DNA of 64,000 nt from Cyanobacteria bacterium GSL.Bin1. Lineage in GTDB: Bacteria > Cyanobacteriota > Cyanobacteriia > Cyanobacteriales > Rubidibacteraceae. Shown one piece after another: positions 8,422 through 27,204 of this stretch. Location: NCBI GenBank assembly GCA_009909085.1, contig JAAANX010000044.1:1-64000 (forward strand), written 5' to 3'. Position numbers and translations under genes: made by a program. The notes below the pieces were generated by a model that saw only the letters and a program-made list of their open reading frames with translations, made no database searches and was not told where the DNA came from. Within the stretch, counting starts at the first letter, position 1; each line of letters starts with the position of its first letter.

Positions 8422-8463
8422 GCTGAGTGGGGGAGTATGGGAGAAGAGGTGACAAGGAAAAAA

Positions 8464-9111: not shown

Positions 9112-9119
9112 CCTAAGCT

Positions 9120-10118
9120 TTATGGGATAGAATCAGGAGAGGGAGATGAGGGTGGCATTTCTTCTCCTGAAACAGCAGAAGCGGAACGATCATAAAGCTG
9201 ACGGAACTCTTTACTCACTCCCGCTAGACGTTCTTTCCAATCAGGGTTTGGTTCAATTCCTTCAATGGAGCGATGATAGGCTAATAAAGTAACTGCCATT
9301 GCATAAGCATCTGAAATGGCTAGTTTAAACATCCACACCCCAACTAAAACTAAAACTCCCAGTAAGGTGCGAATTGCAGTCACTGGAATAATCGCTCCTA
9401 AGATAATTGCGGGAATGCCCAATACCATTAAAACCACAATCATTTCTAGATAGTTAAGAATAGTCAGCGCCGCGGCATTTGCCAGCACGGGTTTCCAAGA
9501 TTGAGCATAGAGAATAATGCCATCTTCAGCCACTGACCAGATATTCGCTTCTCGATATTGATACGCTCGACTTAAAATCGCTTCATCAATATAGGTGGTA
9601 GCAAATTTAGAAACTTGGGTAACCAGTTTATTGAAGTTATCGAATTGGTTGAAACTTTTAAAATCGGGCAGTGGCATGATTCGTATTAATTGGGCAAATG
9701 TACAATTCATCCGCTGAACAATTCGATCAATCATTTGATCTACAGCAAACATCAACGTGGTATCTCTAAACCGCGCTTTGACTTGTTGCCGACCATATTT
9801 TATTTGTGATCCTTGAGGGGTTTGACCGTAAACAATATACTCGGTCATCACTGCAATATGAGCAGCCTGTAAGAGGTAGAAGAAATAGCGTTTTGCCCAT
9901 TGCACCAACGCCCAAGCCCCGCCTAGAGCAACAACAAATACAATCACTCCTAGTAAACTGAACGCTTGACCCAATAGCCAGGCAATTCCTGCGGCAACTG
10001 CCAAGTAAACCGCAAGCCCTAGACCCAGTAAAGCGTAAGTGCCAAGTCGAATCCAGATAAACGGCATGGTTTTCCGAATCAGTCCGATTGCTTCCCTTAA
10101 ATAAAGCTTGATTTCCAT
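9120..10118 (-). CDS. Conserved-type membrane protein of unknown function
   Basis: The 332-residue protein has two adjacent long hydrophobic segments near the N terminus (about 24-50 and 54-75), then an amphipathic middle rich in Phe and Asn (about 110-195). Two more hydrophobic stretches follow (about 215-240 and 245-275), and a Pro/Ser/Glu-rich C-terminal tail. No motif of a known transporter or enzyme was recognised. It is convergent with the infB-linked membrane gene (8 bp apart) and divergent from the small gene at 10269. A role in membrane organisation is possible but not shown. Confidence 0.75.
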   Translation of the reverse strand: MEIKLYLREAIGLIRKTMPFIWIRLGTYALLGLGLAVYLAVAAGIAWLLGQAFSLLGVIVFVVALGGAWALVQWAKRYFFYLLQAAHIAVMTEYIVYGQTPQGSQIKYGRQQVKARFRDTTLMFAVDQMIDRIVQRMNCTFAQLIRIMPLPDFKSFNQFDNFNKLVTQVSKFATTYIDEAILSRAYQYREANIWSVAEDGIILYAQSWKPVLANAAALTILNYLEMIVVLMVLGIPAIILGAIIPVTAIRTLLGVLVLVGVWMFKLAISDAYAMAVTLLAYHRSIEGIEPNPDWKERLAGVSKEFRQLYDRSASAVSGEEMPPSSPSPDSIP

Positions 10119-10268
10119 TTAATTAACTCCTATTATGTGATTTAATTAAATGATATTCAGCGAATTCGATTCTCAGCCATAATATGTTTGTTTTGTATCC
10201 CGAGTAGCAGAAACTGCTTAACAATTTGAGCTATGTTAGAAAGTAGAGTGAATAATATTGGGAACGGT

Positions 10269-11803: not shown

Positions 11804-11850
11804 TCTCCTGGTCTCCCTGGTCTCCCTGGTCTCCTTGTCTCCCCCTCACC
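11804..11850 (+). repeat. Nonamer tandem repeat (TCTCCCTGG)
   Basis: Three to four copies of TCTCCCTGG (11804-11832 region) grade into a C-rich end. The 18-mer at 11833-11850 (CCTTGTC followed by TCCCCCTCACC) recurs exactly at 24686-24703, so this is a dispersed spacer repeat. The array makes an in-frame TTG at 11835 look like an early start for the helicase gene; that start is not credible. Confidence 0.8.
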
Positions 11851-11873
11851 TTGTCCCCCTACGTCTGGCTGAT

Positions 11874-13379
11874 ATGATTGCTATTGTTAAGGTCAACACA
11901 GCAACGACAATGTCAAGACGGGTTCCGAAGCTATGGTACCATCAGGGGACACTTTTACTGCATCCACCGCCACAGGGAAAAAGTTGGATTGATTTTGCGA
12001 CTTGGGACGATCGCGTGGAAAAGTTTCGGATTCCAGCGATTCATTATCGCCCGTTAGTGGAAACGTTACAAAGTGAGGACATTAATTTCCTAGATGAGGC
12101 AAAAGACTTTCAGTCCTTAGCGTTAAATTCTCGCTTTGAAATGACCCCTTATCCCCATCAAGCAGAAGCTTTAGCGGGATGGAAAGCAGCAGGAAGACAG
12201 GGGATTGTGGTGTTGCCGACAGCGGCGGGAAAAACCTACTTAGCGCAGTTAGCGATGGAAGCCACACCCCGCACCACATTGATTGTCGTTCCCACCTTAG
12301 ATTTAATGCACCAGTGGTACGCCCAACTCGAAGCCGCATTTCCCGATGTCGAAGTCGGGTTATTAGGAGGAGGATCGCGCGATCGCAGCGATATTTTAGT
12401 GGCAACCTATAACAGTGCTGCCATTCATGCGGAAGCCCTCGGAAATCGCTATGCCTTTTTAATTTTTGATGAATGTCATCATCTCCCAACCGATTTTTAT
12501 CGGGTGATTGCAGAATACGCGATCGCGCCCTACCGTCTAGGACTCACGGCAACGCCAGAACGTTCCGACGGCAATGAACGCGATTTAGAAGCCCTCATTG
12601 GTTCGGTTGTCTATCGAAAAACGGCAAAAGAATTATCGGGTGATGCCCTCGCCAGTTATAAAACCGTTGAAATTAAAGTTAAGTTATCTCCCAAAGAAAA
12701 AGACACCTATCAAAGCGCGATCGCGCTTCGGAATCAATTTTTAAAGCAGAAACGAATTTCTTTAAGTAACTTAAAAGGGTGGCAATTATTTGTAAAAGAA
12801 AGTGCGCGCAGCCAAGAAGGAAGACGCGCCATGTTAGCCCATCGGCAAGCCAAAGAAATTGCCTTAGGAACGGATAGTAAGCTACGAGTTCTAACTGAAT
12901 TAATTACTAAACATTCTCCCGAACCCATCTTAATTTTTACTAACGATAACGCTACTGTTTATCGGGTTTCTCAAGACTTTTTAATCCCGGCTATTACCCA
13001 TCAAACCCCCGTTAAAGAACGCCATTTTATTCTGCAACAATTCAAATCAGGTATCTATAAAACTCTTGTCGCCTCTCATGTTCTCAATGAAGGGGTTGAT
13101 GTTCCCGATGCCAGAATTGCCATTATTTTATCAGGAACCAGTTCCGCTCGGGAATATATCCAACGCCTCGGTCGTGTTTTGAGAAAAGGAAAAACAAAAG
13201 ACAAACAAGCGATCCTTTACGAAGTAATTGCTGAAGAAACTAGCGAAGAACGAACCTCCGAACGCCGACGGGGTGAGCCAACTTCCAAACCAGGTCAATT
13301 GGAAATGTTTCCCTCACCAAAACCCAAGGCTCCTTTTACTCCAAAAGCAGCAGAAGAGGGTGAACGCTATGACACATAA
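11874..13379 (+). CDS. XPB/Rad25-like DEAD/DEAH-box helicase
   Basis: This superfamily 2 helicase of 501 residues has an N-terminal domain (about 1-95), a Q-like site (TPYPHQAEAL), Walker A LPTAAGKT (114-121), motif II DECH (199-202), motif III LTATP, and a second RecA domain. The latter ends in a motif VI stretch YIQRLGRVLRKGK. The order and the short N-terminal domain resemble bacterial and archaeal XPB proteins that unwind or remodel DNA in repair. No Bax1-type nuclease partner follows. ATG at 11874 was chosen; ATG at 11910 (MSRRVPKLWYHQG) is also plausible. An upstream TTG lies in repeat sequence. The C-terminal tail (about 455-501) is basic, Pro-rich and probably disordered. Confidence 0.88.
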   Translation: MIAIVKVNTATTMSRRVPKLWYHQGTLLLHPPPQGKSWIDFATWDDRVEKFRIPAIHYRPLVETLQSEDINFLDEAKDFQSLALNSRFEMTPYPHQAEALAGWKAAGRQGIVVLPTAAGKTYLAQLAMEATPRTTLIVVPTLDLMHQWYAQLEAAFPDVEVGLLGGGSRDRSDILVATYNSAAIHAEALGNRYAFLIFDECHHLPTDFYRVIAEYAIAPYRLGLTATPERSDGNERDLEALIGSVVYRKTAKELSGDALASYKTVEIKVKLSPKEKDTYQSAIALRNQFLKQKRISLSNLKGWQLFVKESARSQEGRRAMLAHRQAKEIALGTDSKLRVLTELITKHSPEPILIFTNDNATVYRVSQDFLIPAITHQTPVKERHFILQQFKSGIYKTLVASHVLNEGVDVPDARIAIILSGTSSAREYIQRLGRVLRKGKTKDKQAILYEVIAEETSEERTSERRRGEPTSKPGQLEMFPSPKPKAPFTPKAAEEGERYDT

Positions 13380-13699: not shown

Positions 13700-14677
13700 A
13701 TGACACAAGTGCTTTGCTTAGGGGAAATTTTATATGATTATTTAGCCCAGGAAGCGGGGAAATCAGTCGAGAACGTCAATAATTGGATTGCTTATCCAGG
13801 AGGAGCACCAGCCAATGTGGCAACGGCGCTTGTCAAACTGGGAACATCAGCCGGCTTTATTGGTTGCATTGGCAAAGACGAAGCCGGGCAATCTCTAAAA
13901 CAACTTTTGTTAGACATTGGGGTCAACTGTCAAGGGATTCAAGAACATCCCACGGCTCCCACGCGACAAGTTTATGTAACCCGCTCGCTAGATGGCGATC
14001 GCGCTTTTGCTGGCTTTGGCGATCAGCCCACTGATCAGTTTGCGGATGCCTTCCTCGATGCCGATCAACTACCGGTTGCCTTATTTGAAAAAGCCCAGTT
14101 TTTAGTCATTGGTACCTTAGAACTGGCTTATCCCATGACTCGCAAAGCTATCTTTCGCGCCCTCGATCTAGCGAATACTTATAACTTGAAAGTGCTGCTC
14201 GATGTCAATTGGCGACCAATGTTTTGGCCGAATCCCGATGCCGCGATCCCCCTCATTACCCAATTATGGAAAACGGTAGACTTTGTTAAATTATCCCGAG
14301 AAGAAGCCGAATGGCTTTTTAGTACGAGTGAGTCGGGCGCGATCGCGCACCAGCTTTCTTCGGTTGAAGGCGTCTTTATTACAGACGGCGAAGGCATGAT
14401 TAGCTATTACTTCAACGATTTTGAAGGGAAAATTCCAGCTTTTCAAGTCTCAGTTCAAGATACAACCGGTGCGGGGGATAGTTTTGTTGCCGGCTTAGTC
14501 CATCAACTGTGTCAACATGGCTTAAATCATCTCAATAGCACCGTCGCAGTTAAGGAAGTGATCACCTACGCCTGTGCTGTGGGCGGGTTAACGACCACCC
14601 AACCCGGTGCCATTTCTGCTCAACCGACGGCTGAAGCTGTAGAAGCATTTCTAATGGAATTAGCTCACAATAATTAA
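13700..14677 (+). CDS. PfkB family carbohydrate kinase (fructokinase-like)
   Basis: The 325-residue cytoplasmic kinase has the first PfkB signature GGAPANVA (34-41), the sugar-binding Gly-rich loop GFIGCIGKDEAG and the second signature DTTGAGDSF (254-262) with catalytic base Asp260. Family members phosphorylate fructose, ribose or related sugars with ATP. Cyanobacterial homologues of this length are usually called fructokinase, which would fit sucrose turnover, but specificity is not proved. Its promoter lies within or just after the MITE-like element. No terminator is obvious downstream; a 316 bp spacer follows. Confidence 0.88.
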   Translation: MTQVLCLGEILYDYLAQEAGKSVENVNNWIAYPGGAPANVATALVKLGTSAGFIGCIGKDEAGQSLKQLLLDIGVNCQGIQEHPTAPTRQVYVTRSLDGDRAFAGFGDQPTDQFADAFLDADQLPVALFEKAQFLVIGTLELAYPMTRKAIFRALDLANTYNLKVLLDVNWRPMFWPNPDAAIPLITQLWKTVDFVKLSREEAEWLFSTSESGAIAHQLSSVEGVFITDGEGMISYYFNDFEGKIPAFQVSVQDTTGAGDSFVAGLVHQLCQHGLNHLNSTVAVKEVITYACAVGGLTTTQPGAISAQPTAEAVEAFLMELAHNN

Positions 14678-14993
14678 TGATATAGTAAAAATACCTGGTA
14701 AATTTCACGTCTCTCTTTATTTTTGGCTATGGTCAGTCAATTTTTCTCTTACTAAATCGATTTTTAATAGTGATTTTCTAAACAATAAATTGTTGTCTTT
14801 GCATACATAAAGATACGTTATTGGTTTTGATCTAGATTCAAACCGTCTTGAGCTCCCTATTCAATAATAGTCTCTTCAAGAGATGAAAATCACTAAAAAT
14901 GTTGTTGATGATTATCATTAAGCCCACCGTCTTGAAGGTGCCAACGTAGTAGTGGGCTCCAAAAAATACTGAAATAACTCAGACCAGTAAATA
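14678..14993 (+). promoter_or_regulatory. Structured 316 bp leader of the AAA/carotenoid-oxygenase/kinase operon
   Basis: There is no gene here. Several structures are visible. A long-range inverted repeat pairs 14760-14778 with 14885-14900 (TTTTTA..TAGTGATTTTC against GAAAATCACTAAAAA, with a three-base gap). TCTCTTCAAGAGA (14871-14883) is a 13-base palindrome. AGCCCAC (14921-14927) pairs with GTGGGCT (14952-14958) 36 bases before the ATG, followed by CCAAAAAAT. The last could be an attenuator, an RNA element or the terminator of the kinase transcript. No named riboswitch was recognised. Confidence 0.45.
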
Positions 14994-16373
14994 ATGTCTC
15001 TTGTCGGTTCTCAAGCATTCAATGCCCTCATCGAAAAGTTAAACCATCACCTTGTAGACAATCACCAGGACTGTCTTAGCGCCACAGAAATTTTAATTTT
15101 GCAAGGAATTTTGCAAGATCAAACTTATAATCAAATTGCAGAAGAATGTGCCTACAGTACAGTTTACTTTAGTAATGTCGTCGCCCCTAAGTTGTGGCGA
15201 CGATTAAGTACCCTCCTGGGCAAGCGTGTCACAAAAAAAAATAGTCGTGTTTTGCTTGAGTTATATTGGGCCAATCATTCTCAAGCCCAAACACAGCCTA
15301 CCTCTTCTTCATCACCATTCTGGCTTTCTCCCACTTCACAATCATTTTCTTATCCCAGTGGAGCCATTCCGCTCGGCTCTCAATTTTATATTCAACGTCG
15401 GTCTATCGAAGAAAAAATCTATCGAGGAATTGAGCAACCGGGAGCTTTGCTACGGATTAAAGCCCCTCAAGAAATGGGCAAAACTTCCCTGTTATTAAGA
15501 ATTTTAGAATATGGAACAAGCTTAGGATATTACACGGTTAACCTTGACCTTCAGCAAGCCGATCAAGAAATATTGACCAATGTCAATCGGTTTCTGCGTT
15601 GGGTCTGTGCTAATCTGACCTATCAGCTCAACCTAGAAGCAAAATTGGATGAATACTGGGACGAAGACATTGGTAGCAGTGTCAGTTGTACACTCTATTT
15701 GCATTCCATTTTAGAACAACTGGATCAGCCACTGATCCTCGCCTTTGACGAAGTCAATCAAATCTTTGAGTATCCCAAAATTGCCAAAAGTTTTTTACCC
15801 CTTCTGCGCTCCTGGTATGAAGAAACAAAAGAGGTTTCAATTTGGCGCAAACTGCGTCTGGTGGTGATTCACTCCACTGAAATTTATGTACCGTTGCAAT
15901 TAAACCAGTCTCCTTTTAGTAATGTTGGTTTACCCCTCGAATTACCAAACTTTAGTAGTGAGGAGGTACAGGAATTAGCCAAACGCTACAGTTTGACTTG
16001 GGGAAAATCTGAAGTCAACCAATTAATGTCAGTGATTGATGGACATCCGGCTCTTGTTCATCTGACCCTCTATTATCTCAGTCACAAAGAGATCACCCTC
16101 AATCAACTGATTAAAGATGTGCCCACGTTAAGTGGGATCTATGCCGCTCACTTACGTCGTCACCAAGTCAGTTTGCAAGAACAGCCAGAGTTAGCTCAGG
16201 CTTGTTTGAGCATTATGAGTGCTCAAGAACCGGTTTCTATCGAGCCAACTCTCGCGTACAAACTTTACAGTATGGGGTTAATTAACTTAAACGGCGATCG
16301 CGCTTTTCCTAGAATTCCTCTTTATCAGCAATATTTTCAGCAACAGTTCCAACATTATGATCAAAAAGAATAA
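14994..16373 (+). CDS. vMAP N-terminal HTH plus AAA-like ATPase domain protein
   Basis: The 459-residue protein starts with a small helical domain (about 1-95) containing a helix-turn-helix-like stretch, LQDQTYNQIAEECAYSTVYF. This resembles the N-terminal domain of cyanobacterial vWA-MoxR-associated (vMAP) proteins. A linker leads to an AAA-like (AAA_35 type) domain with the entry motif LGSQFYIQRRSIEEKIYRGI, Walker A at 156-165 (APQEMGKTS) and Walker B LILAFDEVNQIFE. Such proteins are thought to act as regulatory ATPases; targets are unknown. Its stop codon overlaps the ATG of the carotenoid oxygenase by one base (TAATG), so translation is coupled. The kinase at 18466 carries a second AAA-like domain of the same kind, which suggests the two proteins interact. 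Confidence 0.85.
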   Translation: MSLVGSQAFNALIEKLNHHLVDNHQDCLSATEILILQGILQDQTYNQIAEECAYSTVYFSNVVAPKLWRRLSTLLGKRVTKKNSRVLLELYWANHSQAQTQPTSSSSPFWLSPTSQSFSYPSGAIPLGSQFYIQRRSIEEKIYRGIEQPGALLRIKAPQEMGKTSLLLRILEYGTSLGYYTVNLDLQQADQEILTNVNRFLRWVCANLTYQLNLEAKLDEYWDEDIGSSVSCTLYLHSILEQLDQPLILAFDEVNQIFEYPKIAKSFLPLLRSWYEETKEVSIWRKLRLVVIHSTEIYVPLQLNQSPFSNVGLPLELPNFSSEEVQELAKRYSLTWGKSEVNQLMSVIDGHPALVHLTLYYLSHKEITLNQLIKDVPTLSGIYAAHLRRHQVSLQEQPELAQACLSIMSAQEPVSIEPTLAYKLYSMGLINLNGDRAFPRIPLYQQYFQQQFQHYDQKE

Positions 16374-18445
16374 TGTATCAGTCCAATTGTGAATCTACTG
16401 CCCATCCCCATTACTCTGTTCTCCTTCCGTCCTCGATTCTGAGTGCGAGTCGTTGTGAGTTCAGTGATTTAACCCTGCAGATTGAAGGTAACCTTCCCAA
16501 AGACCTGCAGGGTCATTTTTTTATGGTAGCCCCAGTGGGATCAGTGAATTCAGGTGGACTGCCTTATCCTAGCGGCAACTCTCTTCTCAATGGAGACGGC
16601 ATGATTTACCGTCTCGATTTTAATCCACCCGGTCAAGTTCAGGTGACAACGAAGCTAGTCACACCACCGGATTATTACGCGGATTTAGCCACGCGACCCG
16701 GCAGTGAGTACGCTAAGTTTGGCTTTCATAATCGGGGAATTACGCGCTTTTCTAAGACTTTAGGGCTCAGGAATCAACTGAATACAGCGTTTTTACCAAT
16801 GCCTTTTTCTCCTGATGCCCCACAGCGTCTGCTGGTCACCTATGATGCCGGTCGCCCTTATGAAATTGATCCCAACACCCTAGAAACGGTTACTCCGGTG
16901 GGGGCTAATGCCGAGTGGGAACCCGAAATTGAGGGGATTCACTATCCGTTTCAACCTTTTCTCAGTACGGCTCATCCGGTTTTTGATGCTCATACGGGGA
17001 AAATGTTTACGGTGAACTATGGTCGCTCGGTTCGCAACTTCCTATACACTATTCCTTTAATCAATGAAGTTCAAGAACTCCCCCAAGAATTAGAAGAGTG
17101 GATTGATGCCATCGCAGGATTTGTCAATGGCGAGTTAACCCGAGATCTATTGCATCGGTTTTCTCATCTCTTTCGACAAGTTACAGATGAAATTTCTCAA
17201 ATCATAGAAGACATTTCAGGAATCGAGTTAGATAATTTCGTTTACTTACTGCGTTGGGATGGACAAGGGAATTTAGAACGCTGGAAAGTGGTTTTACCCG
17301 ATGGTTCACCCATTAAAATTAAACAAACCATCCATCAAATTGGCATGAGTCAAGACTATATTGTTTTGATGGATACCGCTTTTGTCACGGGCATCGAGCA
17401 AGTCCTCAATAATCCTTTGCCTAACCATAAAAATTTGGAGGCAATGCTGAGAGAGATCTCAGGCAGAGCAGCCAACCCCGATTCCGTGATTTACATTATT
17501 CGCCGTCGCGATTTAGAACAAAGTCAGTTGCCAGCGCTCGGGGGAACGGAAGTGAAAGTGACCGCTCAACAACTGACGATTCCGATGGAAGCTGCTCATT
17601 TCTTAATGGATTATGACAACCCCAATGGACACATTACACTTCATTTCTCCCATATTTGTGCTTGGGATGTTGCAGAGTGGATTCACAAATTTGATCGATC
17701 AGCTTATGGGACACATCCTTTTCTACCGGAACAAGTGCAAGGAATGGAAACGAATCCCATGGATATTAGTCGTTTCGGTCGTTATGTCATTGACGCCGAA
17801 CCAGCGGAGTTATTGCAATCGCAGATCATTTACGAAACCCCCTACACTTGGGGCACGGGGTTATATGCTTATTTAGACCGTCTCCCATCTGGTTTGCCCC
17901 CATCGCGTTTAGATCATATTTACTGGTCTTCTTTGGGACTTTGGCCAGAACTAATGACGAAATATACGGTCCAACTCTACGAAGATTATAAATACCGAGC
18001 AATTCCCCTTGCTGATTTGCTTGATCTCGCCAAGGAGAGAATCCCCTCTTGTTTATTACATGTTGACACGACAGTCATGAAAATTGCTGATGTGTATCAA
18101 GCACCGGTTGGAACCATTCTTAATTCCCCACAATTTATTCCTCGTCAAGGTGCAGAGGGCAATTTGACGGATGGTTATTTAATGTGTACGGCTTTTTTTG
18201 AAAATCGCAATGAATTCTGGCTCTTTGATGCACGAAATCTCCGTCAGGGACCCATTTGTCAGTTATCTCATCCTGACCTAAACTTTGGTTTTACTTTACA
18301 TACGACTTGGTTACCAACCATTGGACCGCGAGAGGCAAACTATAAGATTCCTGCTGTTGCAGATTATAACTCCCTGCTGAGTCAACGCTCTAATCCTCAA
18401 ATTAAGGAGTTGTTTGACCAACATGTTTATCCCCATTTTCCTTAG
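16373..18445 (+). CDS. Carotenoid oxygenase (carotenoid cleavage dioxygenase family)
   Basis: The 690-residue protein belongs to the Fe(II) carotenoid/retinal-pigment-epithelium oxygenases, which cut carotenoids or stilbenes to aldehydes. Family features are NLPKDLQGHFFMVAPVG near residue 38, the NGDGMIYRL stretch, YDAGRPYEID, and His residues placed like the four iron ligands. These are His201 in STAHPVFD, His in AAHFLMDYD, His in LHVDTTVMK and His643 in FTLHTTW. It is longer than the usual 480-550 residues because of extra segments in the middle (about 225-300 and 440-520). No signal peptide is seen. It lies between two regulatory ATPase genes with a one-base overlap upstream and a 20 bp gap downstream, unusual company for this enzyme. 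Confidence 0.9.
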   Translation: MYQSNCESTAHPHYSVLLPSSILSASRCEFSDLTLQIEGNLPKDLQGHFFMVAPVGSVNSGGLPYPSGNSLLNGDGMIYRLDFNPPGQVQVTTKLVTPPDYYADLATRPGSEYAKFGFHNRGITRFSKTLGLRNQLNTAFLPMPFSPDAPQRLLVTYDAGRPYEIDPNTLETVTPVGANAEWEPEIEGIHYPFQPFLSTAHPVFDAHTGKMFTVNYGRSVRNFLYTIPLINEVQELPQELEEWIDAIAGFVNGELTRDLLHRFSHLFRQVTDEISQIIEDISGIELDNFVYLLRWDGQGNLERWKVVLPDGSPIKIKQTIHQIGMSQDYIVLMDTAFVTGIEQVLNNPLPNHKNLEAMLREISGRAANPDSVIYIIRRRDLEQSQLPALGGTEVKVTAQQLTIPMEAAHFLMDYDNPNGHITLHFSHICAWDVAEWIHKFDRSAYGTHPFLPEQVQGMETNPMDISRFGRYVIDAEPAELLQSQIIYETPYTWGTGLYAYLDRLPSGLPPSRLDHIYWSSLGLWPELMTKYTVQLYEDYKYRAIPLADLLDLAKERIPSCLLHVDTTVMKIADVYQAPVGTILNSPQFIPRQGAEGNLTDGYLMCTAFFENRNEFWLFDARNLRQGPICQLSHPDLNFGFTLHTTWLPTIGPREANYKIPAVADYNSLLSQRSNPQIKELFDQHVYPHFP

Positions 18446-18465
18446 TCAAAACTTCAGAGTCAACC

Positions 18466-21400
18466 ATGATCTCAGGTTATACCATTACCGAAACGATTAC
18501 AGAGCGCTCAAAAACGATTATTAAGCGGGCGATTAGAAATAGCGACGGTCAAGCTGTAATTATCAAACGCCTGAAGTCAGAAACCCCCGACATAATTGAT
18601 ATCAAGCGCCTCCAGAACGAATATGAAATTAGTAGCAGTCTAGATTGTCCGGGTATTGTTAAAGCCTATCGCCTCGAAGCCGATGGCAACAGCTTTGCTC
18701 TCATTTTGGAAGACTTTGGCGGTCAATCGCTCTCGGAGTACCTTTCTCAGCAGACCCTTTCCCTGGAAGACTTTTTTACCATTGGGGCAAGTTTAGCTGA
18801 AACCTTAAGCCACCTGCACGCCATTCCGATTATTCACAAAGATATTAAACCCAGTAACATTATCATTCATCCGGAAACGCAGGACGTTAAACTGACTGAC
18901 TTTAACATTGCGATTCGCCTGCCATTTGAATATCCAACGCTGCAAAACCCGAATGTGATTGAAGGAACATTTGCTTATATGTCTCCGGAACAGACAGGAA
19001 GGATGAATCGGTATCTTGACCATCGGAGTGACTTGTATTCTTTGGGAGTCACCTTTTATGAAATGCTCACCGGACAACTCCCCTTTACCAGTACCGAACC
19101 TCTGGCTTTAATTCATAGCCATCTTGCTGAGCCTCCCATTCCCCCTCACAAGCTTTGTTCAACCGTTCCTGTCAGCGTTTCCAATCTGACTTTAAAACTG
19201 CTCGAAAAAAGAGCAGAAGATGGATATCAAACAGCAGCGGGTTTAAAGTTTGATTTAGACTATTGTGCCCAACAATATCACCAGAAACAGACCATTGAGC
19301 CGTTTCCCTTAGCGCAGCGCGATCGCGCCCCTTACTTGATTTTGCCACAACACATTTACGGTCGCGATCTCGAGGTTCAAACCTTATGCAATCGCTTTCA
19401 ACAAGTTTGTCAAGGAAACACCGCTTTTGTTTTGATTTCTGGTTATCCGGGAATTGGTAAAACCTCGCTTGTTAAAGAACTGTATAAGCCGCTAGTTAAA
19501 GCGCGAGGCTATTTTATTAGTGGTAAATTTGACCACTTGCAACGCAATATTCCTTATGCTGCAATTGGTGATGCTTTACGAGATTTAACACGACAGTTAC
19601 TCACCGAATCCCCACCCCAATTACAGGAGTGGCAGCTCAAAATACAAAGTGCTCTCGGCAAGAACGGTCAAATTCTTGTTGAGCTGATTCCGGAATTAGA
19701 ATTACTCATTGGTAAGCAAGCAACAGTGCCCTCCCTTTCAGGAAAAGCTGCCAAAAATCGGTTTGATCAAGTATTTAACCAATTTCTACAAGTTTTTTGT
19801 CAAGCTGATCATCCTTTAGTGATGTTTCTTGATGATTTACAGTGGGCAGATTTAGCTTCTCTAGAATTAATTCAGAATTTACTCCATGAACAAACAAACC
19901 AATATTTCTTTTTAATTGGAGCGTATCGTCATAATGAAGTTGATGATACCCATCCCCTAAGCAAGATTCGGGATCAAATCAATAGGCTAGCCATACTAAG
20001 TGATGAGATTACGATTCAGCCATTAACAATTGAGAATGTTACTGAGTTTATTCAAGATACCTTAAAACAAAAGGCTAGCTTAGAAGCGATTCAAGAACTG
20101 AGTGATATTATTCATCAAAAAACTCAAGGTAATCCCTTTTTTATTAATCAACTCTTGAAAGCATTAGATGAGACAAAAATCATTAATTATGATGTACAGA
20201 ATGACAATTGGTTTTGGAATTTAGATGATATTCATAGTATCGGTCTGACTGATGGTAATCTGGTTGACCTCTTAATTGAAAATATCCAGCGATTACCTGT
20301 AAAGACTCAACAACTGCTCCAACTCGCTGCTTGTATTGGCAATTATTTTTCCTTACAACTTTTAGCAGTCATTAATCAACAATCTTCCCCTCTGACTAAC
20401 CAACAATTATGGCCAGCCTTAGAAGCAGGTTTAATTTTATTACACTCAGATATTAACGCTGAAGTTTTGGAGTATAAATTCCTTCATGATCGGGTTCAGC
20501 AAGCGGCTTATGCTTTAATTCCACAAGCTAAAAAAACAGCAATTCATTTTAAAATTGGTGAGTTTCTCCAAACAGAACTGAAGTGCAAACAGACAGAAAA
20601 AAATATTTTCATTTTAGCCAATCAGTTAAATTTAGCTCAAGACTTAATCACTTCACGCTCTCAAAAAAATCAACTCGTCAAACTTAATTTAAGAGCAGGA
20701 AAAAAAGCTAAAATAGCAACTGCTCATCGCTTAGCTGCTAATTATTTAAAAATTAGTCAAAAATTCTTACCCCAAGATAGTTGGAGCACTCAATATGACT
20801 TAACTTATCAAATTTATTTAGAACGAGCAGGAATAGAGTATCTTAACACTAATTTCACTGAAGTCTTTCAATTATGTGAACAAAGCAAAAAAAGATGTAA
20901 AAAAAAGATAGATTATATCAATTTTTTAAAGATTGAAATCCAGGTTAATCTTGCACAAGGGAATATCAATAATGCTATCAATACAGGTCTTGATGCCTTA
21001 GAAATTTTGGAAATTTCTCTGATCGAGTCTCTTCCTCAATTAGAAATTGATCAGTTATTGGCATTGGGTGAAATGACTAATCCATGTGCTTTATGTGCCA
21101 TGGAAATTCTCAATTTAATTATGCCGCCTGCTTGTTATAGTGAAAGTGATTTAGCATTGCCCATTATTTATACAATGCTTGATCTTTCTATACAATATGG
21201 TAATTCTTTACCAGGAATTTTTGGCTATGTGAGTTATGGAACTCTCATCGGATGGCTCAACTTAGATATTGACTCTGCTTATCAATTATGTCAGTTAAGT
21301 TTAAAGCTCTTAGAGGAGTTCGATGGGAAAACAATATTAGCACCAATCAAAATTTCTGTTTACGTTAATACATTTTGCAAAAAAAGACATATTAAAGAAA

Positions 21401-24132
21401 CCCTGAATCCTCTGTTTAATGCAATATCAGAAGCTTTAGAGGTAGGAGATTTAGAATATGCTTGTCATAATGCTAATTTTTATTGTACGCACTTATTTTT
21501 AGCCGGATATCCTTTACGAGAAGTTCATGAAAAACAAAAACAGTATATTGAATTTATCGCTAAATATGAACAAGAACACCAGCTTGCCTTGATCAAAACT
21601 GCGAGTCAAGCGGTTGCAAATTTATTAGACAATTCTCAATTCAAAGTATATTTAAATGGTTCTTTCCTTAACGAAACAGAAACAATTCCTTATTTATTGA
21701 ATCATAAAAATCGAATTGTTCTTTTCAATATCTATTACTTAAAAGCACTCCTCTGCTACTTATTTAAACGCTACTCTCAGGCAATTGAAAATTGTCGCCA
21801 AGCTGTAATGTATGCTGGCTTTATTAAAGCGGAAGTTATCTTTACTGAACATAATTTTTGTTATTCTCTCGCTCTTCTGGGTCAACATAGAGATAGCAGC
21901 ATGGAAGTTCATGAAGACTTGCAAGAAGTGAATAAAAACCAAGAACTTATGAAGATTTGGGCGTATCATGCACCGATGAATTTTCAATATCGCTATGACC
22001 TCGTTGAGGCAGAAAAAGCCAGAGTTTTGGGAGATACTTTAAAGGCAATGGAACTTTATGATCATGCGATTGCTGGCGCAAAGGAGAATGGTTATATTCA
22101 ACACGTTGCTTTGGCAAACGAATTGGCAGGAGAATTTTATCTCGCCTTCGGTCGAGAAATTATTGCTCAAACTTATCTTGCGGAAGCATACTATGCTTAT
22201 CGGCGTTGGGGCGCAGCAGCAAAAGTGAAACACTTAGAATCGGAATATCCTCAATTCCGTTTAGCTGAAATTCTACCTTTACCCAAAATTAAACAATTTA
22301 CTGCTCTTGATTCGAGTACGAGTAGCAATCCCCAAGATCTTGATTTAATGAGCATTATCAAATCGTCACAAACCCTTGCTGCAGAAATTATTTTAGAGCA
22401 ATTGTTAGGTAAGTTAATTCAAATTGTTGTCGAGAATGCAGGGGCCCAATGGGGATATTTGATTTTAGAGAAAGAAGGTCAACTCTTGATCGAAGCGCAA
22501 TGTCATCGAACAGAAATTACTGTTTCTCAATCGATCGCGGTGATTAATAGTAAACAGCTACCTCTCTCAATTATTAACTATGTCGCTAGAACTCAAGACT
22601 CTGTTATCCTCGATGACGCCACGACTGAAGACCTATTTAACCAAGATCCCTACCTGCAACAACATCAGTGTCGTTCCATCTTATGTACCCCCCTCCTCAA
22701 TCAAGGAGAACTCCTCGGTCTCATTTACCTGGAAAATAATTTAACCACCGAAGCCTTTACCCCTAACCGGTTAGAGGTCATTCAAATTCTCTCAGCGCAA
22801 GCCGCCATTTCTCTCAAGAATGCCCTCCTTTACCAAGAAATGGAAACCCTCAACATGGATTTAAAGCAAGCTCAAGAGGCGTTAGCGCACTCCAATCGTA
22901 ATTTGGAACAAAAAGTTCAATCACGGACACAAAGCCTCAGTGAAGCCCTCGACCTCCTTAAAGCAACACAAGCTGAACTCCGGTTTGAAAACCGTCTCCT
23001 GAAAAGTGAAGCCGACTTTTCTGAGTACCAGTATCAAGTGGGGGGGAGTTTACCGATGGATGCACCGACTTATGTGGTGCGTTCGGCCGATCGCTATCTC
23101 TATCAAGCCTTAAAACAAGGAGAGTTCTGTTATGTGCTCAATCCTCGACAGATGGGAAAATCCAGCTTAATGATTCAGATGATGCACCATCTGCGCAAAG
23201 AAGGATTTTGTTGTGCGTCTATCGATTTAACTCGCATTGGCAGTGATGAGGTGACACCTAGCCAGTGGTACAAAGGGTTAGCCGTGGAGTTATGGAAGAA
23301 TTTTGGGCTGCTGCGGACGGTGAATTTGAAAAGCTGGTGGAATGAACAAACCGATCTCTCACCCGTGCAACGGTTTAGCGAGTTTCTGGAGGAGGTGATT
23401 TTACCTCATGTGGGGGTGAAAAACGACAACTCAGAGAAAAATATTGTCATCTTTATTGATGAAATTGATTGTGTGCTGAGTCTAGACTTTTCAGTCAATG
23501 ACTTTTTTGCCCTGATTCGCGCCTGCTACAATCAGCGCAGTTTCAAACCAGAGTATCAACGCTTAACGTTTGTCTTATTAGGGGTCGCCACCCCTTCCGA
23601 TTTAATTACCGACTACCAAAGAACCCCGTTTAATATTGGTCAAGAAATTTCTCTGAAAGGGTTCAAACAACATGAAGCGCAGCCGTTGTTACAGGGGTTA
23701 AGCCAAAAAGTCGATCACCCACAAACGCTGTTGCGAGAGGTATTGTCTTGGACGAACGGACAACCTTTTTTGACCCAGAAAATTTGTCGCTTGATTCGTC
23801 AGAGTTCGGAGGCGATTCCCCCGCAGGAGGAAGCAGAGTGGGTGAAAAATTTAGTGGAGACAAAGATAATTCAGAATTGGGAGACGCAGGATGAACCAGA
23901 ACATCTCCGAACAGTGCGCGATCGCGTTTTCCATTCCTCAGTTCCGACCTCGCAACTCCTCAGGTTGTATCAACAAATTTTAGAGGCAGGAAGGGTTCCC
24001 AGGACGGATATGCCCGAAGAACAAGTCTTATTAATCTCAGGGTTAGTGGAAAAAGAAGAAGGCCATCTCAAGGTGAAAAATCGCATCTATCAGGCAATTT
24101 TTAATTCAGATTGGGTACAGCGCTATTTATAA
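18466..24132 (+). CDS. Giant Ser/Thr kinase / AAA ATPase / GAF / AAA-like signalling protein
   Basis: The 1888-residue protein has five parts. A Ser/Thr kinase (1-about 265) has Lys34, catalytic HKD (124-126), DFN (145-147) in place of DFG, and SPEQTGRMNR; a Gly-rich loop is lacking, as in HstK-type kinases. An AAA_16-like ATPase follows with Walker A GYPGIGKTS (326-334) and Walker B LDDLQWAD (about 455-462). Then come a long alpha-helical TPR-like region (about 600-1290), a GAF domain (about 1305-1455) with a coiled coil, and a second ATPase domain of AAA-like type (about 1525-1888, NPRQMGKSS 1559-1567, DEID 1665-1668). HstK relatives end in a histidine kinase; here the AAA-like domain takes that place. 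Its 3' end overlaps the convergent phosphoribosyltransferase gene by 10 bp. Confidence 0.93.
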   Translation: MISGYTITETITERSKTIIKRAIRNSDGQAVIIKRLKSETPDIIDIKRLQNEYEISSSLDCPGIVKAYRLEADGNSFALILEDFGGQSLSEYLSQQTLSLEDFFTIGASLAETLSHLHAIPIIHKDIKPSNIIIHPETQDVKLTDFNIAIRLPFEYPTLQNPNVIEGTFAYMSPEQTGRMNRYLDHRSDLYSLGVTFYEMLTGQLPFTSTEPLALIHSHLAEPPIPPHKLCSTVPVSVSNLTLKLLEKRAEDGYQTAAGLKFDLDYCAQQYHQKQTIEPFPLAQRDRAPYLILPQHIYGRDLEVQTLCNRFQQVCQGNTAFVLISGYPGIGKTSLVKELYKPLVKARGYFISGKFDHLQRNIPYAAIGDALRDLTRQLLTESPPQLQEWQLKIQSALGKNGQILVELIPELELLIGKQATVPSLSGKAAKNRFDQVFNQFLQVFCQADHPLVMFLDDLQWADLASLELIQNLLHEQTNQYFFLIGAYRHNEVDDTHPLSKIRDQINRLAILSDEITIQPLTIENVTEFIQDTLKQKASLEAIQELSDIIHQKTQGNPFFINQLLKALDETKIINYDVQNDNWFWNLDDIHSIGLTDGNLVDLLIENIQRLPVKTQQLLQLAACIGNYFSLQLLAVINQQSSPLTNQQLWPALEAGLILLHSDINAEVLEYKFLHDRVQQAAYALIPQAKKTAIHFKIGEFLQTELKCKQTEKNIFILANQLNLAQDLITSRSQKNQLVKLNLRAGKKAKIATAHRLAANYLKISQKFLPQDSWSTQYDLTYQIYLERAGIEYLNTNFTEVFQLCEQSKKRCKKKIDYINFLKIEIQVNLAQGNINNAINTGLDALEILEISLIESLPQLEIDQLLALGEMTNPCALCAMEILNLIMPPACYSESDLALPIIYTMLDLSIQYGNSLPGIFGYVSYGTLIGWLNLDIDSAYQLCQLSLKLLEEFDGKTILAPIKISVYVNTFCKKRHIKETLNPLFNAISEALEVGDLEYACHNANFYCTHLFLAGYPLREVHEKQKQYIEFIAKYEQEHQLALIKTASQAVANLLDNSQFKVYLNGSFLNETETIPYLLNHKNRIVLFNIYYLKALLCYLFKRYSQAIENCRQAVMYAGFIKAEVIFTEHNFCYSLALLGQHRDSSMEVHEDLQEVNKNQELMKIWAYHAPMNFQYRYDLVEAEKARVLGDTLKAMELYDHAIAGAKENGYIQHVALANELAGEFYLAFGREIIAQTYLAEAYYAYRRWGAAAKVKHLESEYPQFRLAEILPLPKIKQFTALDSSTSSNPQDLDLMSIIKSSQTLAAEIILEQLLGKLIQIVVENAGAQWGYLILEKEGQLLIEAQCHRTEITVSQSIAVINSKQLPLSIINYVARTQDSVILDDATTEDLFNQDPYLQQHQCRSILCTPLLNQGELLGLIYLENNLTTEAFTPNRLEVIQILSAQAAISLKNALLYQEMETLNMDLKQAQEALAHSNRNLEQKVQSRTQSLSEALDLLKATQAELRFENRLLKSEADFSEYQYQVGGSLPMDAPTYVVRSADRYLYQALKQGEFCYVLNPRQMGKSSLMIQMMHHLRKEGFCCASIDLTRIGSDEVTPSQWYKGLAVELWKNFGLLRTVNLKSWWNEQTDLSPVQRFSEFLEEVILPHVGVKNDNSEKNIVIFIDEIDCVLSLDFSVNDFFALIRACYNQRSFKPEYQRLTFVLLGVATPSDLITDYQRTPFNIGQEISLKGFKQHEAQPLLQGLSQKVDHPQTLLREVLSWTNGQPFLTQKICRLIRQSSEAIPPQEEAEWVKNLVETKIIQNWETQDEPEHLRTVRDRVFHSSVPTSQLLRLYQQILEAGRVPRTDMPEEQVLLISGLVEKEEGHLKVKNRIYQAIFNSDWVQRYL

Positions 24133-24644
24133 TCGGTAGATGATCGGGTGAGTAAATCCTGAACGCTCATTTGTTCGTAACGTTCAAATGGCTGATGAAT
24201 CCAAGGGTTGTCGGGGAGATAGTGAACATAGTAGTCAGGAATAATCACGGAACAATCTTTGCGCCACAAAACAGCACTCCGTAGTTCCTCAATCTCTGCT
24301 GCATAATGTTGTTTTAGCCAATCCATCGTCACTTTCAGACTCACTCCTGAATCCACTAAATCATCCACCACTAATACTTGATTACCCAACTGCGGTGTGG
24401 TCATTGCCAGATGTTGCGAGAGTTTAATTTCTCCTCGGATTTGATTTTTTTCCCCACCATAAGACGAAGTAGACATAATCGCTAGGGGTTGGTTAAAGAG
24501 TCGGGAAAAGATATCGCCAACCCGCAACCCCCCCTTGGCAATACAAACAATTTGGTTAAACTGCCAACCTGACTGGTCAATCTGAATCGCCAGTTGTTCA
24601 ATGGTTTGATAATATTCTGACCAAGAAACATAGAGATCGGACAT
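24123..24644 (-). CDS. Phosphoribosyltransferase (Gpt/hypoxanthine-type)
   Basis: The 173-residue cytoplasmic protein has the PRPP-binding signature VLVVDDLVDSGVSL (about 82-95) and a preceding loop CIAKGGLRVGDIFSR like that of xanthine/guanine phosphoribosyltransferases. These enzymes join a purine base to PRPP for nucleotide salvage. The substrate is not certain; some family members have regulatory roles. Its last 10 bases overlap the end of the giant kinase gene on the other strand. The start at 24644 follows a spacer that contains an 18-base dispersed repeat. Confidence 0.85.
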   Translation of the reverse strand: MSDLYVSWSEYYQTIEQLAIQIDQSGWQFNQIVCIAKGGLRVGDIFSRLFNQPLAIMSTSSYGGEKNQIRGEIKLSQHLAMTTPQLGNQVLVVDDLVDSGVSLKVTMDWLKQHYAAEIEELRSAVLWRKDCSVIIPDYYVHYLPDNPWIHQPFERYEQMSVQDLLTRSSTDYK

Positions 24645-24685
24645 TGATTTGATGATTGATGATTTGTTGTTTGTTTACCCTGTCC

Positions 24686-24703
24686 CCTTGTCTCCCCCTC
24701 ACC
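24686..24703 (+). repeat. Second copy of a dispersed 18-base repeat
   Basis: These bases (CCTTGTC followed by TCCCCCTCACC) are identical to 11833-11850. Here they lie between the glycosyltransferase and phosphoribosyltransferase genes, without the TCTCCCTGG units seen at the first copy. Confidence 0.7.
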
Positions 24704-24741
24704 CCCGATCAATATTATCGTGAAAATTGACCAATTTGATA

Positions 24742-27204
24742 TTAAGTCAACTTCTGATAGGCTTTGATCAGATTGCCTTGCATGAGGGCAGCAACCCCAT
24801 CGAGCGTGTGCAGAATGTCAAGATTGGGATTAAGCTTTAAAGCAGTGGCAAGGGCTGTTTCCGCAGCGTTCGGTTGCCAGCTATACAGATAGACAAAGGC
24901 AAGATAGGCGTAAGCATAAGGGTTTTGCGAGTCAAGTTGCGTAATTTGTTGAAACTGCGCGATCGCGCCCTCTGCATCTCGTTGCAGCACTTCGGCAAGG
25001 GCTAGAGGATAAAGCCAGTCTAACCGTTGTCCCTTCTGTTGCAGGCGGTATTTCAGTGCAATTTCCGTTTGTGCTAAATAGTCTTGAATGGGATCATATT
25101 GATTAATCCGTCCGGTTTGGGCAAAAATCTCTTCTAAGGCGGTTTCTCCGAGAGGAAGAGTGATAGCTGCTTTGCGCAGTTGAGTGACTAAGTCTAATTC
25201 TGGTGCCGATGGCGCAGTGGCATTAGCATCAACCGTGACTGAGATGGCGGGTGTCTCTAGCGGGTAAGTTTTTCCTGTTTCTCGGTTTAAATATCTCGCG
25301 CGGAGGGTATAGTTGCCTGGCTTCGTTTCAGGCGGAATTAACATCGCTGTATTTTCTCTGACTTGAAATCCCCCTTTTTCTTCTAAATTTCTCGCTAAAC
25401 GTCCCATGGCAATACCATGATCATGCAACCAAAGATTCCCCTCTCCTTCCCAGGTTAAGAGGACAATGCCAGGTTGTAGTTCTTCCCAACGCCCTTCCCA
25501 GGTATAATTGACTGGAATGGGACCCCCCGAGGGAATAGTCTCGGGAACCTCGACCGCGGTTAATTGCACCTTGGAAGAAATATTTTGAATTGGCGTAACA
25601 GCAACCGTTTGCTTGTTCTGTTGATACAGTTTGAGAACGCTTTCATCGGGTAATTGCCACGTTTCTTTTAAGCGAAAATCTTCACCGGTTTCGATGCGTT
25701 CAGTAATTAATTTTTGTGCTGACGGAATTGATCCTTGTTCTCCGGTTTTTGTAAGAAACCAAGGCAGCGATCGCGCATCTTGTTCAATGTTACTTTCCTC
25801 CACTCCCACTTGCCGACCATACACCTGAAAATTGGCTTGTGCGCCATAAAAGGAAAAGTTATGTTGATTAATACTTGGGGTTGAAGGTAACACCCCTAAT
25901 GTACTTCTTAAATAAAGATTAGTTTCAACAATTTCTGCAATTACTTCTTGATGCGGATAATTTTTTCCTACCTCAGGATAATGCTGCACTCTTGGACTCA
26001 GGTATTGAGTTATCCATTGTCCACCCAAAGGAAATAAGTTTAAAATCATTAGGATTAATCCTAATCCCAAACTGCCCATCATCAGAGAAGAACGCCATTT
26101 GCGATCCACTAAAAAAAGTCCTTGGGCAATGATTAAGGATACAACAGGTAAGAGCGGTAAGATATAACGAGCATCTTTATTCAAATTCAGAGAACTCAGC
26201 ACGTAACCCCCAATCAAAAAAATCCCTAACCAACGAATTGTTTGGATTTGCTTTTCTTGCCAACGATTTTGTCGGATCAACCATGATATTCCATAGATTA
26301 AAAAACAAACCAGCGGAATAATCAAGAGTGGCCAAGATAATAAATAAGGTAAAACTTTGCCATAATAAACCCAAGCATCAAGAGTATTTAATGCCGGATC
26401 GCCTTCCGCGATCGCTGAGTCAACGGTTGCTCGTTTACCAGAGGTTAAAATCAGTAACCAATTGGTTCGATACCAAGGAAAAAAAATCAAGAAAGCAGTC
26501 AAAAACCCAAGGAAAAATTGACTTAAATTTTGCCATTTTCTCTGCCGCAATGTTACCAGTAATAACCAGACAATTGGGAAGAAGAGAAACAACACAACTG
26601 TTTGCTTAATCATTAACCCGATGCCCAGGGCAAACCCTACTAAAATAGCCCATAACCAACTCTGAAAACGAGGTCTTCTGACATCACAGGCTGCTTGTTT
26701 CCATAGGGTTAAACTCAAAAAGCCAAAGCTTACTATTGCCGTTACCGGATAATCAAGAACAAATTCGGTGCGATAGCGGTATAAACCAGGCAAAACTTGA
26801 CAAAATGCAGCAGCCAGTAAGCCCACTTTGGGATTGAATAATTGTGTGCCTAAGCCATAAACGGAAACCAGTAAAAGAGCACTAAAAAGACTTAGAATTA
26901 ATGTTGCTGCATCCGCATTCGTGCCAAAAATTTCAAGAAAAGGCACCGTTACAATATAAGTTCCAGGGGGAATTTTAGAAGAGAGAAGCCACAGCTGTTC
27001 CCACCAATTGGAATCGAACCATTGGGGCGTTTGCAAGGCATACCAATAGTTCATCACCCCATTTAAATAATCGGCTTGATCCCAAGCGGGAACCCCCTGA
27101 TCCAGGCAAAACCAAAAGCGATCAATGAGAAAACCGCTTAGCCAAATCAACAGCAGAAGCAAGGGAAACGACTTTTGATGAAGACTCAATTTTCGCTGGT
27201 GCAT
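24742..27204 (-). CDS. GT39-like membrane glycosyltransferase with C-terminal TPR-like region
   Basis: The 820-residue protein has an N-terminal GT-C fold of about ten membrane segments (1-about 390) with an acidic first loop (GVPAWDQADYLNGV) typical of ArnT/PMT-like enzymes. A large periplasmic-type domain follows (about 400-660), and the C terminus (about 710-815) has TPR-like repeats (AEGAIAQFQQITQLDSQNP). Such enzymes use lipid-linked sugars to glycosylate lipids or proteins at the outer face of the membrane. Acceptor and donor are unknown. The TPR-like tail is an addition to the standard family and may bind a partner. It follows two small orphan genes and is on the same strand. Confidence 0.8.
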   Translation of the reverse strand: MHQRKLSLHQKSFPLLLLLIWLSGFLIDRFWFCLDQGVPAWDQADYLNGVMNYWYALQTPQWFDSNWWEQLWLLSSKIPPGTYIVTVPFLEIFGTNADAATLILSLFSALLLVSVYGLGTQLFNPKVGLLAAAFCQVLPGLYRYRTEFVLDYPVTAIVSFGFLSLTLWKQAACDVRRPRFQSWLWAILVGFALGIGLMIKQTVVLFLFFPIVWLLLVTLRQRKWQNLSQFFLGFLTAFLIFFPWYRTNWLLILTSGKRATVDSAIAEGDPALNTLDAWVYYGKVLPYLLSWPLLIIPLVCFLIYGISWLIRQNRWQEKQIQTIRWLGIFLIGGYVLSSLNLNKDARYILPLLPVVSLIIAQGLFLVDRKWRSSLMMGSLGLGLILMILNLFPLGGQWITQYLSPRVQHYPEVGKNYPHQEVIAEIVETNLYLRSTLGVLPSTPSINQHNFSFYGAQANFQVYGRQVGVEESNIEQDARSLPWFLTKTGEQGSIPSAQKLITERIETGEDFRLKETWQLPDESVLKLYQQNKQTVAVTPIQNISSKVQLTAVEVPETIPSGGPIPVNYTWEGRWEELQPGIVLLTWEGEGNLWLHDHGIAMGRLARNLEEKGGFQVRENTAMLIPPETKPGNYTLRARYLNRETGKTYPLETPAISVTVDANATAPSAPELDLVTQLRKAAITLPLGETALEEIFAQTGRINQYDPIQDYLAQTEIALKYRLQQKGQRLDWLYPLALAEVLQRDAEGAIAQFQQITQLDSQNPYAYAYLAFVYLYSWQPNAAETALATALKLNPNLDILHTLDGVAALMQGNLIKAYQKLT

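Follow-up and report, generated by a model that had tools for sequence, protein, structure and literature searches.

Introduction

Carotenoid oxygenases (CCDs) begin the strigolactone and abscisic acid pathways of plants and the retinoid pathway of animals. STAND proteins, among them MalT, Apaf-1 and Avs, switch through ligand-driven nucleotide exchange and oligomerization, and they often recognize a partner protein. In the present study, an operon of Cyanobacteria bacterium GSL.Bin1 was analyzed in which genes for both kinds of protein are joined. The analyzed DNA comprised positions 1 to 64,000 of contig JAAANX010000044.1 (GenBank assembly GCA_009909085.1) and is referred to as the window; the operon occupies positions 14,994 to 24,132 and encodes an AAA_35 protein, a divergent CCD and a giant sensor kinase.

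The plant enzymes CCD7 and CCD8 are treated in the available part of PMC5133782. In the available part of PMC7029182, the one such description that was found, Chlorogloeopsis fritschii is credited with a "much longer RPE65" that resembles lignostilbene dioxygenases and retains only two of the four histidines. The HstK/cbSTKIII dual kinases are defined, in the accessible portion of PMC2176072, by a C-terminal histidine kinase. Among the matches listed in openly licensed PMC papers, as seen from their titles and the starts of their abstracts, none dealt with a linkage between CCDs and STAND kinases or with a pairing of AAA_35 domains.

Association of divergent CCDs with STAND kinases

The operon consists of three open reading frames of the same direction:

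14994–16373, + strand: gene 1, AAA_35 "s"-class protein of 459 residues (Pfam, s/k class scores, AlphaFold2 model)
16373–18445, + strand: gene 2, divergent long carotenoid-oxygenase (CCD/RPE65-fold) protein of 690 residues (Pfam, structure model, Foldseek)
18466–24132, + strand: gene 3, sensor kinase of 1888 residues with the layout Pkinase-AAA_16 (STAND)-TPR-like-GAF-coiled coil-AAA_35 ("k") (Pfam)

The last A of the TAA stop codon of gene 1 is the A of the ATG of gene 2, and 20 bp separate gene 2 from gene 3. The tight coupling of the three genes, proposed in an initial annotation made from the sequence alone, was borne out by these coordinates.

The survey covered 92 CCD loci: the window itself, 80 loci of named species (the best of 124 that were confirmed) and 11 loci from a phylum-wide genome search. 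A kinase was regarded as linked when it lay within 800 bp of the CCD gene, or upstream with its last output domain ending within 1500 bp. A kinase-AAA_16 protein was adjacent at 52 of the 92 loci, in cyanobacteria as well as in Bacteroidota, being directly downstream on the same strand in 45 cases (median downstream distance 133 bp), upstream in 6 and divergent in 1. The loci belonged to cyanobacteria, to Bacteroidota such as Algoriphagus, Thermoflexibacter, Marivirga, Aquimarina and Saprospirales, and to one Candidatus Thermochlorobacteriaceae genome; the closest relatives of the window in the searches were cyanobacteria.

The divergent CCD family was present in at least 23 of 386 genomes of the phylum, five of the 23 holding a remote form (26% identity at locus L055). 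In these 23 genomes, chosen for holding the family, 19 of the 25 divergent CCD loci had a kinase of this type within 6 kb, compared with about 0.37 expected and with none of the 50 ordinary CCDs; the kinase list used for these counts gives minimum numbers (E up to 1e-60; in six genomes, 46 of 53–81 candidates were scored). Because the 92 loci are mutually related, Fisher and chance figures should not be read as probabilities from independent samples. The view that CCD genes normally stand alone thus holds for the ordinary enzymes and fails for the divergent subfamily.

Restriction of the gene order to one genome or species, which would have refuted the reading of the initial annotation, was not observed, as the order recurred across genera. 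The complete AAA_35s-CCD-kinase-AAA_35k arrangement was found in the same order and orientation in Chlorogloea (L090) and Chlorogloeopsis (L088, with a 1.3-kb gap after gene 1), in genome G008 (L047), where gene 1 is a k-cyclase-s fusion, and in G095, G312, G235:C112 and a Kovacikia plasmid (L243). Three plasmid records found later, from Fischerella, Kovacikia and Bernardetia, served as a held-out check. The Fischerella CCD gene is followed by the gene of a 1901-residue kinase with a k domain, and the Kovacikia plasmid carries the whole series; the Bernardetia record is weighed in the Discussion. Functional coupling of the CCDs with STAND signaling proteins is considered very probable.

The divergent CCD

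The gene 2 protein matched the Pfam RPE65 model with 125 bits over the whole protein (cut-off 27), in two stretches; when compared within the same genome, three ordinary CCDs reached 418–522 bits and the two pieces of gene 2 reached 74 and 50. Sequence matches to solved structures were weak and fell on lignostilbene-type dioxygenases and ACO. The structure model (mean pLDDT 78, pTM 0.82) was best matched by Foldseek to aromatic/lignostilbene dioxygenases, NOV1, ACO and CAO1 (best E 9.6e-23), with TM values by target mostly of 0.6–0.7, and all 50 matches listed were members of the carotenoid-oxygenase family. Relative to enzymes of about 490 residues, the model contained extra helical segments. 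Alignments predicted the codons of four iron-ligand histidines:

16973–16975, + strand: H201
17333–17335, + strand: H321
17597–17599, + strand: H409
18299–18301, + strand: H643

These residues were invariant in 18 of 18 rows of an alignment that included ordinary CCDs. Among 91 family members they were kept in all 88 scorable rows, the other 3 rows being gapped, and a pseudo-enzyme nature of the CCD was on this basis rejected as a family trait. The surrounding positions were numbered after the second-shell residues of ACO, which we take to be Glu150, Glu370 and Glu426. Asp occupied the Glu150-like position in 89 of the 91 rows, with one Glu and one gap in the others, and the Glu426-like E614 was retained in 79 of 91 rows and replaced by Gln in 12. 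The Glu370 region and the canonical E-F-P segment of ordinary CCDs appeared as gaps. As far as alignments can tell, conservation of the predicted metal site is strong, and the residues around it are unlike those of ordinary CCDs. According to a structure title, a Glu150Asp variant of ACO has been crystallized, and the presence of Asp therefore does not imply a destroyed site. All four histidines also aligned in the long CCD of a Chlorogloeopsis fritschii strain (L088), which contradicts the description in the available part of PMC7029182 if the same gene is meant.

Carotenoid biosynthesis genes were searched for in 13 non-cyanobacterial host genomes, the host of L132 being left out. A crtI-family gene (phytoene-desaturase type) was above the cut-off in 13 of 13 hosts versus 4 of 14 control genomes, and a phytoene/squalene synthase family gene was present in 12 of 13 versus 7 of 14. 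The carotenoid genes of the hosts fit a carotenoid substrate of the CCD, but genes of both types are common in these host groups.

The sensor kinase and its exchangeable outputs

The gene 3 protein was divided into the following parts:

18517–19128, + strand: Ser/Thr protein kinase domain, residues 18–221 (Pfam)
19354–19917, + strand: AAA_16 STAND NTPase, residues 297–484 (Pfam, 158.7 bits)
20743–22335, + strand: TPR-like region, about residues 760–1290 (assigned from the layout and a weak TPR_1 match)
22393–22815, + strand: GAF domain, residues 1310–1450 (Pfam)
23044–24105, + strand: C-terminal AAA_35 "k" domain, residues 1527–1880, at the variable output position (Pfam, 117 bits, class scores)

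The additional NTPase, AAA_16, had not been distinguished in the initial annotation. It has a P-loop with Walker A and Walker B motifs, as is required of a STAND NTPase, and it is followed by a region that may contain superhelical repeats, with a weak TPR_1 match in the window (E 0.14) and sub-cut-off TPR matches in the relatives L042, L045 and L051.

The Walker A lysine and the Walker B aspartate of AAA_16 were kept in 53 of 53 CCD-linked rows. The active-site residues of the kinase domain (K34, D126, N131 and D145) are intact in the window, whereas catalytic residues were substituted in 11 of the 53 linked rows, and also in 2 of 21 non-linked kinases. A further 6 linked rows were gapped at catalytic positions, five from Bacteroidota at the lysine and L045 at all four. 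The substituted kinases, possibly pseudokinases with an intact STAND Walker site, were those of L059, L063, L068, L081, L086, L087, L088, L094, L095, L047 and L050.

The C-terminal output of the linked kinases was a cyclase in 14 cases, a SpoIIE phosphatase in 10, a histidine kinase in 10, AAA_35 in 7 and GGDEF in 6, the remaining 5 kinases being truncated or broken. The histidine kinase outputs were recognized by sequence motif, with confirmation by Pfam for L115 alone, and most of the others follow from BLAST comparison with reference domains, samples being examined by Pfam as well. In FastTree phylogenies the output changed at least 15 times on the CCD tree and 16 times on the kinase tree while the CCD stayed. 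Because of its low coverage, L050 was excluded from the CCD tree, and L040, a kinase on a second contig of G005 that is outside the 92 loci, was included in the kinase tree. The kinase clade of the window (18 rows, support 99) was entirely CCD-linked and contained all five output types. Elsewhere on the kinase tree, for which 21 non-linked kinases were sampled, linked and non-linked kinases were mixed, with at least 10 changes; therefore, the link has been gained or lost repeatedly.

Partners of other kinds also adjoined the CCDs. At L071, L084, L098, L102 and L125 (by Pfam for L071, L098 and L125) the neighbor was a two-cyclase-AAA_16 protein, a layout that we take to recall soluble adenylyl cyclase. 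Two of these proteins, at 5973–9863 of L098 and 625–4536 of L125, also showed TPR matches. Codirectional NB-ARC-WD40 proteins were found beside the CCD at L052, L054 and L099. The part common to the kinase, two-cyclase and NB-ARC-WD40 partners is a STAND NTPase. The unlinked loci L108 and L126 had other signaling neighbors, histidine kinases and a SpoIIE-domain protein, respectively.

The AAA_35 s/k pair

The AAA_35 domain of gene 1 (residues 120–450, nucleotides 15351–16343) is a STAND-type NTPase that scored 463 bits in Pfam. The model of the protein (mean pLDDT 82) was matched by Foldseek to archaeal Walker ATPases, NLR, Avs, CED-4 and MalT. The N terminus was predicted to be helical and gave only a sub-threshold GerE match (residues 27–55, E 0.016); it is weakly supported as helix-turn-helix-like (HTH-like) and might bind DNA. 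An AAA-like domain shared by genes 1 and 3 had been claimed in the initial annotation, and both domains are indeed AAA_35 (19% identity by BLASTP, E 3e-10). The notion that they are "the same" domain was nevertheless dropped, as AAA_35 scores split into two classes, s (at least 200 bits) and k (at most 166 bits).

These classes were surveyed in 17 genomes, 16 of which gave matches. The survey yielded 73 s and 74 k domains, counts that include a few broken fragments. A k domain lay within 3 kb of 40 of the 73 s domains and within 500 bp of 30, on the same strand in 27 of the latter. Domains of like class were neighbors within 3 kb in fewer cases (2 of 73 s and 11 of 74 k), and 24 of the 73 s domains lacked any k within 10 kb. 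The s proteins carried HTH-like N termini, TIR, CHAT, kinase, cyclase or GGDEF parts, and the k proteins carried WD40, CHASE2, histidine kinase, periplasmic-binding-like, receiver-PAS or kinase-STAND-GAF parts; one fusion protein (L047) held k, cyclase and s. Thus, s is an effector-bearing class and k a sensor-bearing class, and they often stand side by side. Where the output of a linked CCD locus could be read, an s gene accompanied 12 of the 14 loci that had a k domain and none of the 33 that had no k, and the two k-bearing loci without s (L073 and L080) start near a contig end.

The pairing is a phenomenon separate from the CCD-kinase link and wider than it, and the operon is a meeting point of these two conserved associations. 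Judged from domain contents and gene positions, the s/k pair looks like a sensor-to-effector relay that is used far beyond the operon and in which s and k would make contact.

A second gene for an HTH-like-AAA_35s protein was observed in the genome of the window (L161, G000:C88, positions 5386–10233, minus strand) directly beside an AAA_35k-WD40 gene, with neither CCD nor kinase. At seven loci of Scytonema, Brasilonema and Tolypothrix (L073, L076, L079, L080, L082, L085 and L087) a giant kinase of the histidine kinase type was followed by an AAA_35k gene, and at six of the seven, two CCDs were contained within one long open reading frame. The k gene of L085 encoded receiver-PAS-AAA_35k (Pfam), and a CHAT-AAA_35s gene was located upstream. 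On the Fischerella plasmid, two reverse-transcriptase genes in inverted orientation (L241, 2512–7927) lay immediately upstream of the CCD-kinase pair, at a position where one could have expected an s gene.

Genomic context

The expected location of the promoter is the intergenic region upstream of gene 1:

14678–14993, + strand: upstream intergenic region

A two-sequence alignment of this region with that of the sister species showed no prominent motif, and a conserved promoter motif was not considered further. Promoter- and terminator-like sites within 14000–26000 were at background level. According to Pfam, the upstream flank encodes a PspA-like protein, an XPB-type helicase and a PfkB sugar kinase, and the downstream flank a phosphoribosyltransferase, a PMT-type glycosyltransferase, an ABC transporter and an alpha/beta hydrolase; 2 of the 9 flanking proteins had no Pfam match, and the matched ones look ordinary or housekeeping. 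The helicase (11835–13379) is of the XPB/RAD25 type with a damage-recognition domain, and the PfkB neighbor was also present in G326, G368 and G121. At its 3′ end, the kinase gene shares 10 bp (24123–24132) with the phosphoribosyltransferase gene, which converges on it.

Discussion

It was proposed that the three genes would form one signaling unit in which the CCD feeds the STAND part of gene 3 and AAA_35k relays the signal to gene 1. The CCD would supply the input, either as a cleavage product or as the substrate-bound CCD protein itself. The AAA_16 NTPase and the TPR-like region, perhaps together with GAF, would read this input, and the switched protein would then drive whichever output is fused to its C terminus. 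In the window this is the k domain, which would meet the separate s protein carrying the effector, here the HTH-like N terminus. The CCD was placed on the input side because it stays as the outputs change. The STAND part was taken as the receiver because its Walker residues are kept throughout the linked rows, unlike the kinase residues. Gene linkage, the CCD fold, the conserved metal site, the exchangeable outputs and the genomic s/k pairing are shown by the data. We infer catalysis by the CCD, its substrate, the recognition of a product, the direction of signaling and the contact of s with k, and we regard the proposal as a whole as about evenly balanced between right and wrong.

The apocarotenoid-responsive module suggested by the initial annotation is in part supported by these results. 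A carotenoid-derived signal is plausible, as the iron ligands are kept and the hosts are carotenogenic. The assignment of GAF as the ligand sensor was not upheld: the AAA_16 STAND part, and not GAF, is common to the kinase-type and cyclase-type partners, which makes the STAND part the likelier receiver. A broader version of the proposal, which we put forward tentatively and consider somewhat doubtful, is a hormone-like apocarotenoid signaling of Cyanobacteriota and Bacteroidota, where a small aldehyde or ketone made by the long CCDs would directly activate STAND sensors. The outputs would then be interchangeable and would include cAMP/cGMP, c-di-GMP, protein phosphorylation or dephosphorylation, and an AAA_35 relay to TIR, CHAT or HTH-like effectors. 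The connection of one CCD subfamily with kinases, cyclases, GGDEF proteins and phosphatases in two phyla would mean a bacterial carotenoid-derived signal, and the partners that end in a nucleotide cyclase would give the pathway a ready read-out. Overall, the linkage was much strengthened, the chemistry is putative and the interpretation is partly supported.

Several observations weigh against a strict unit. In G368, a member of the same genus, the CCD was lost and both gene 1 (76% identity) and the kinase (64% identity, 1893 codons without a stop) were kept. The locus (L238) has the order helicase-PfkB-AAA_35s-kinase-phosphoribosyltransferase, with a CCD remnant of about 180 bp, made of pieces of the N and C termini, between the AAA_35s and kinase genes. 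With genes 1 and 3 retained, the CCD would be an input whose loss leaves the other two genes in place. A replacement of the AAA_16-TPR part along with this loss was hinted at by per-domain identities and was dropped on the AAA_16 tree, where G368 grouped with the window and L100 (support 100) with end branches of similar length (0.44–0.46). The sister species G326 (L036, G326:C120) has the three genes, but its CCD contains an in-frame stop and its kinase, near a contig end, is interrupted; these breaks may be a sequencing fault.

In the 23 genomes, 107 of 126 such kinases had no CCD nearby (again from the lower-bound list), and 40 of the 92 CCD loci had no such kinase adjacent, three of them (L064, L096 and L097) being at contig ends and others adjoining the NB-ARC-WD40 or cyclase-STAND proteins described above. 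Neighbors of the two-partner secretion (TPS) type, haemagglutinin-like, were found at L053, L111, L122, L124, L127, L129, L130 and L131; five of these eight loci were Pleurocapsa-type, and Pfam was run on three of these contigs. Among 13 Bacteroidota loci, 7 were unlinked, most of them with no recognized partner, and the Bernardetia plasmid CCD likewise had neither a kinase link nor a recognized partner. As to the AAA_35 pair, the CCD adjoins an s gene at L075 and L077, where there is no kinase and no k, and the Fischerella plasmid has k without s, while the Kovacikia plasmid has s. Finally, Asp at the Glu150-like position together with the gap at the E-F-P segment means that the chemistry or the substrate of these CCDs may differ from those of ordinary CCDs.

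Four other explanations were weighed against the proposed input role of the CCD. It is unlikely that the enzyme is instead placed downstream, with the kinase or its output regulating the CCD by phosphorylation or expression and some other stimulus entering through the GAF or TPR-like part. The tight operon would agree with this arrangement, as would the active site of the kinase, which is intact in most of the linked rows and in the window, but the catalytic substitutions in 11 of the 53 linked rows do not. Moreover, cyclase, GGDEF and phosphatase outputs joined to one CCD family would be odd if the CCD were the target, and CCDs also adjoin cyclase-STAND proteins without any kinase domain.

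The CCD could also act as a non-catalytic, iron-containing sensor of a ligand or of redox state or O2, that is, as a carotenoid- or lipid-binding propeller touching the STAND part. The invariance of the four ligands in the scorable rows speaks against such a role, as does the crystallized ACO variant, by whose title Asp need not be destructive. We therefore find this sensor role distinctly unlikely, even though the extra helical segments, the altered second shell with its missing E-F-P segment and the linkage to STAND proteins would be compatible with it.

A STAND-based biological conflict system, serving defense or cell death, in which the CCD senses or executes damage, was also considered: the effectors of AAA_35s proteins include TIR and CHAT, effector kinds that occur in the available parts of PMC7159879 and PMC8195603, the AAA_35s fold resembles the NTPases of NLR, Avs and CED-4, and occurrence within the genus is patchy. 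Against it, neither of the MoxR and vWA partners of the vWA-MoxR ternary systems (PMC7159879) was found in the three operon proteins or the nine flanking proteins scanned, the PADLOC matches listed (25 of 35) all fell on the kinase domain, and no copy was found in a phage collection; for these reasons a defense system was dropped as the first choice. The named neighbors in the window also look housekeeping, and 40 of the 47 readable CCD-linked outputs belong to second-messenger or phosphosignaling types, which leaves a conflict role very unlikely.

An incidental neighborhood, in which kinase and CCD are merely carried together, would suit the deletion in G368 and the many kinases that have no CCD, but it is highly improbable given the excess of linked divergent loci over expectation, the absence of linkage for ordinary CCDs, the pairing in two phyla and the scatter of linked kinases over the kinase tree with its repeated changes.

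Comparison with known systems

Like the HstK/cbSTKIII dual kinases, the gene 3 protein begins with a Ser/Thr kinase and has GAF further on. It ends in AAA_35 with no C-terminal histidine kinase and is not a strict dual kinase in the sense of the accessible portion of PMC2176072, whereas a C-terminal histidine kinase is present in some CCD-linked relatives (L115 by Pfam and nine others by motif). The words "carotenoid" and "AAA" do not occur in the text of PMC2176072.

In the STAND/VMAP conflict systems, as presented in the available parts of PMC7159879 and PMC8195603, one adaptor-like domain is likewise found on the sensor or core and on separate effectors. The present case differs in that two paralogous STAND NTPases, s and k, make up the shared part, and neither MoxR nor vWA was found in the proteins scanned. 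"Carotenoid" occurs 0 times in either text.

Plant strigolactone and abscisic acid signaling, with CCD7/CCD8 and NCED, offers an analogy only, that of a carotenoid oxygenase feeding a signaling pathway; the bacterial CCDs are associated with STAND kinases and cyclases, without a known homologous receptor. The closest described enzymes are cyanobacterial ACO, NosCCD and NosACO, lignostilbene dioxygenases, NOV1 and CAO1, with which gene 2 shares the fold (Foldseek), the four histidines and the Glu426-like E614. Compared with ordinary CCDs, the gene 2 protein is about 200 residues longer, has Asp at the Glu150-like position and is linked to signaling genes.

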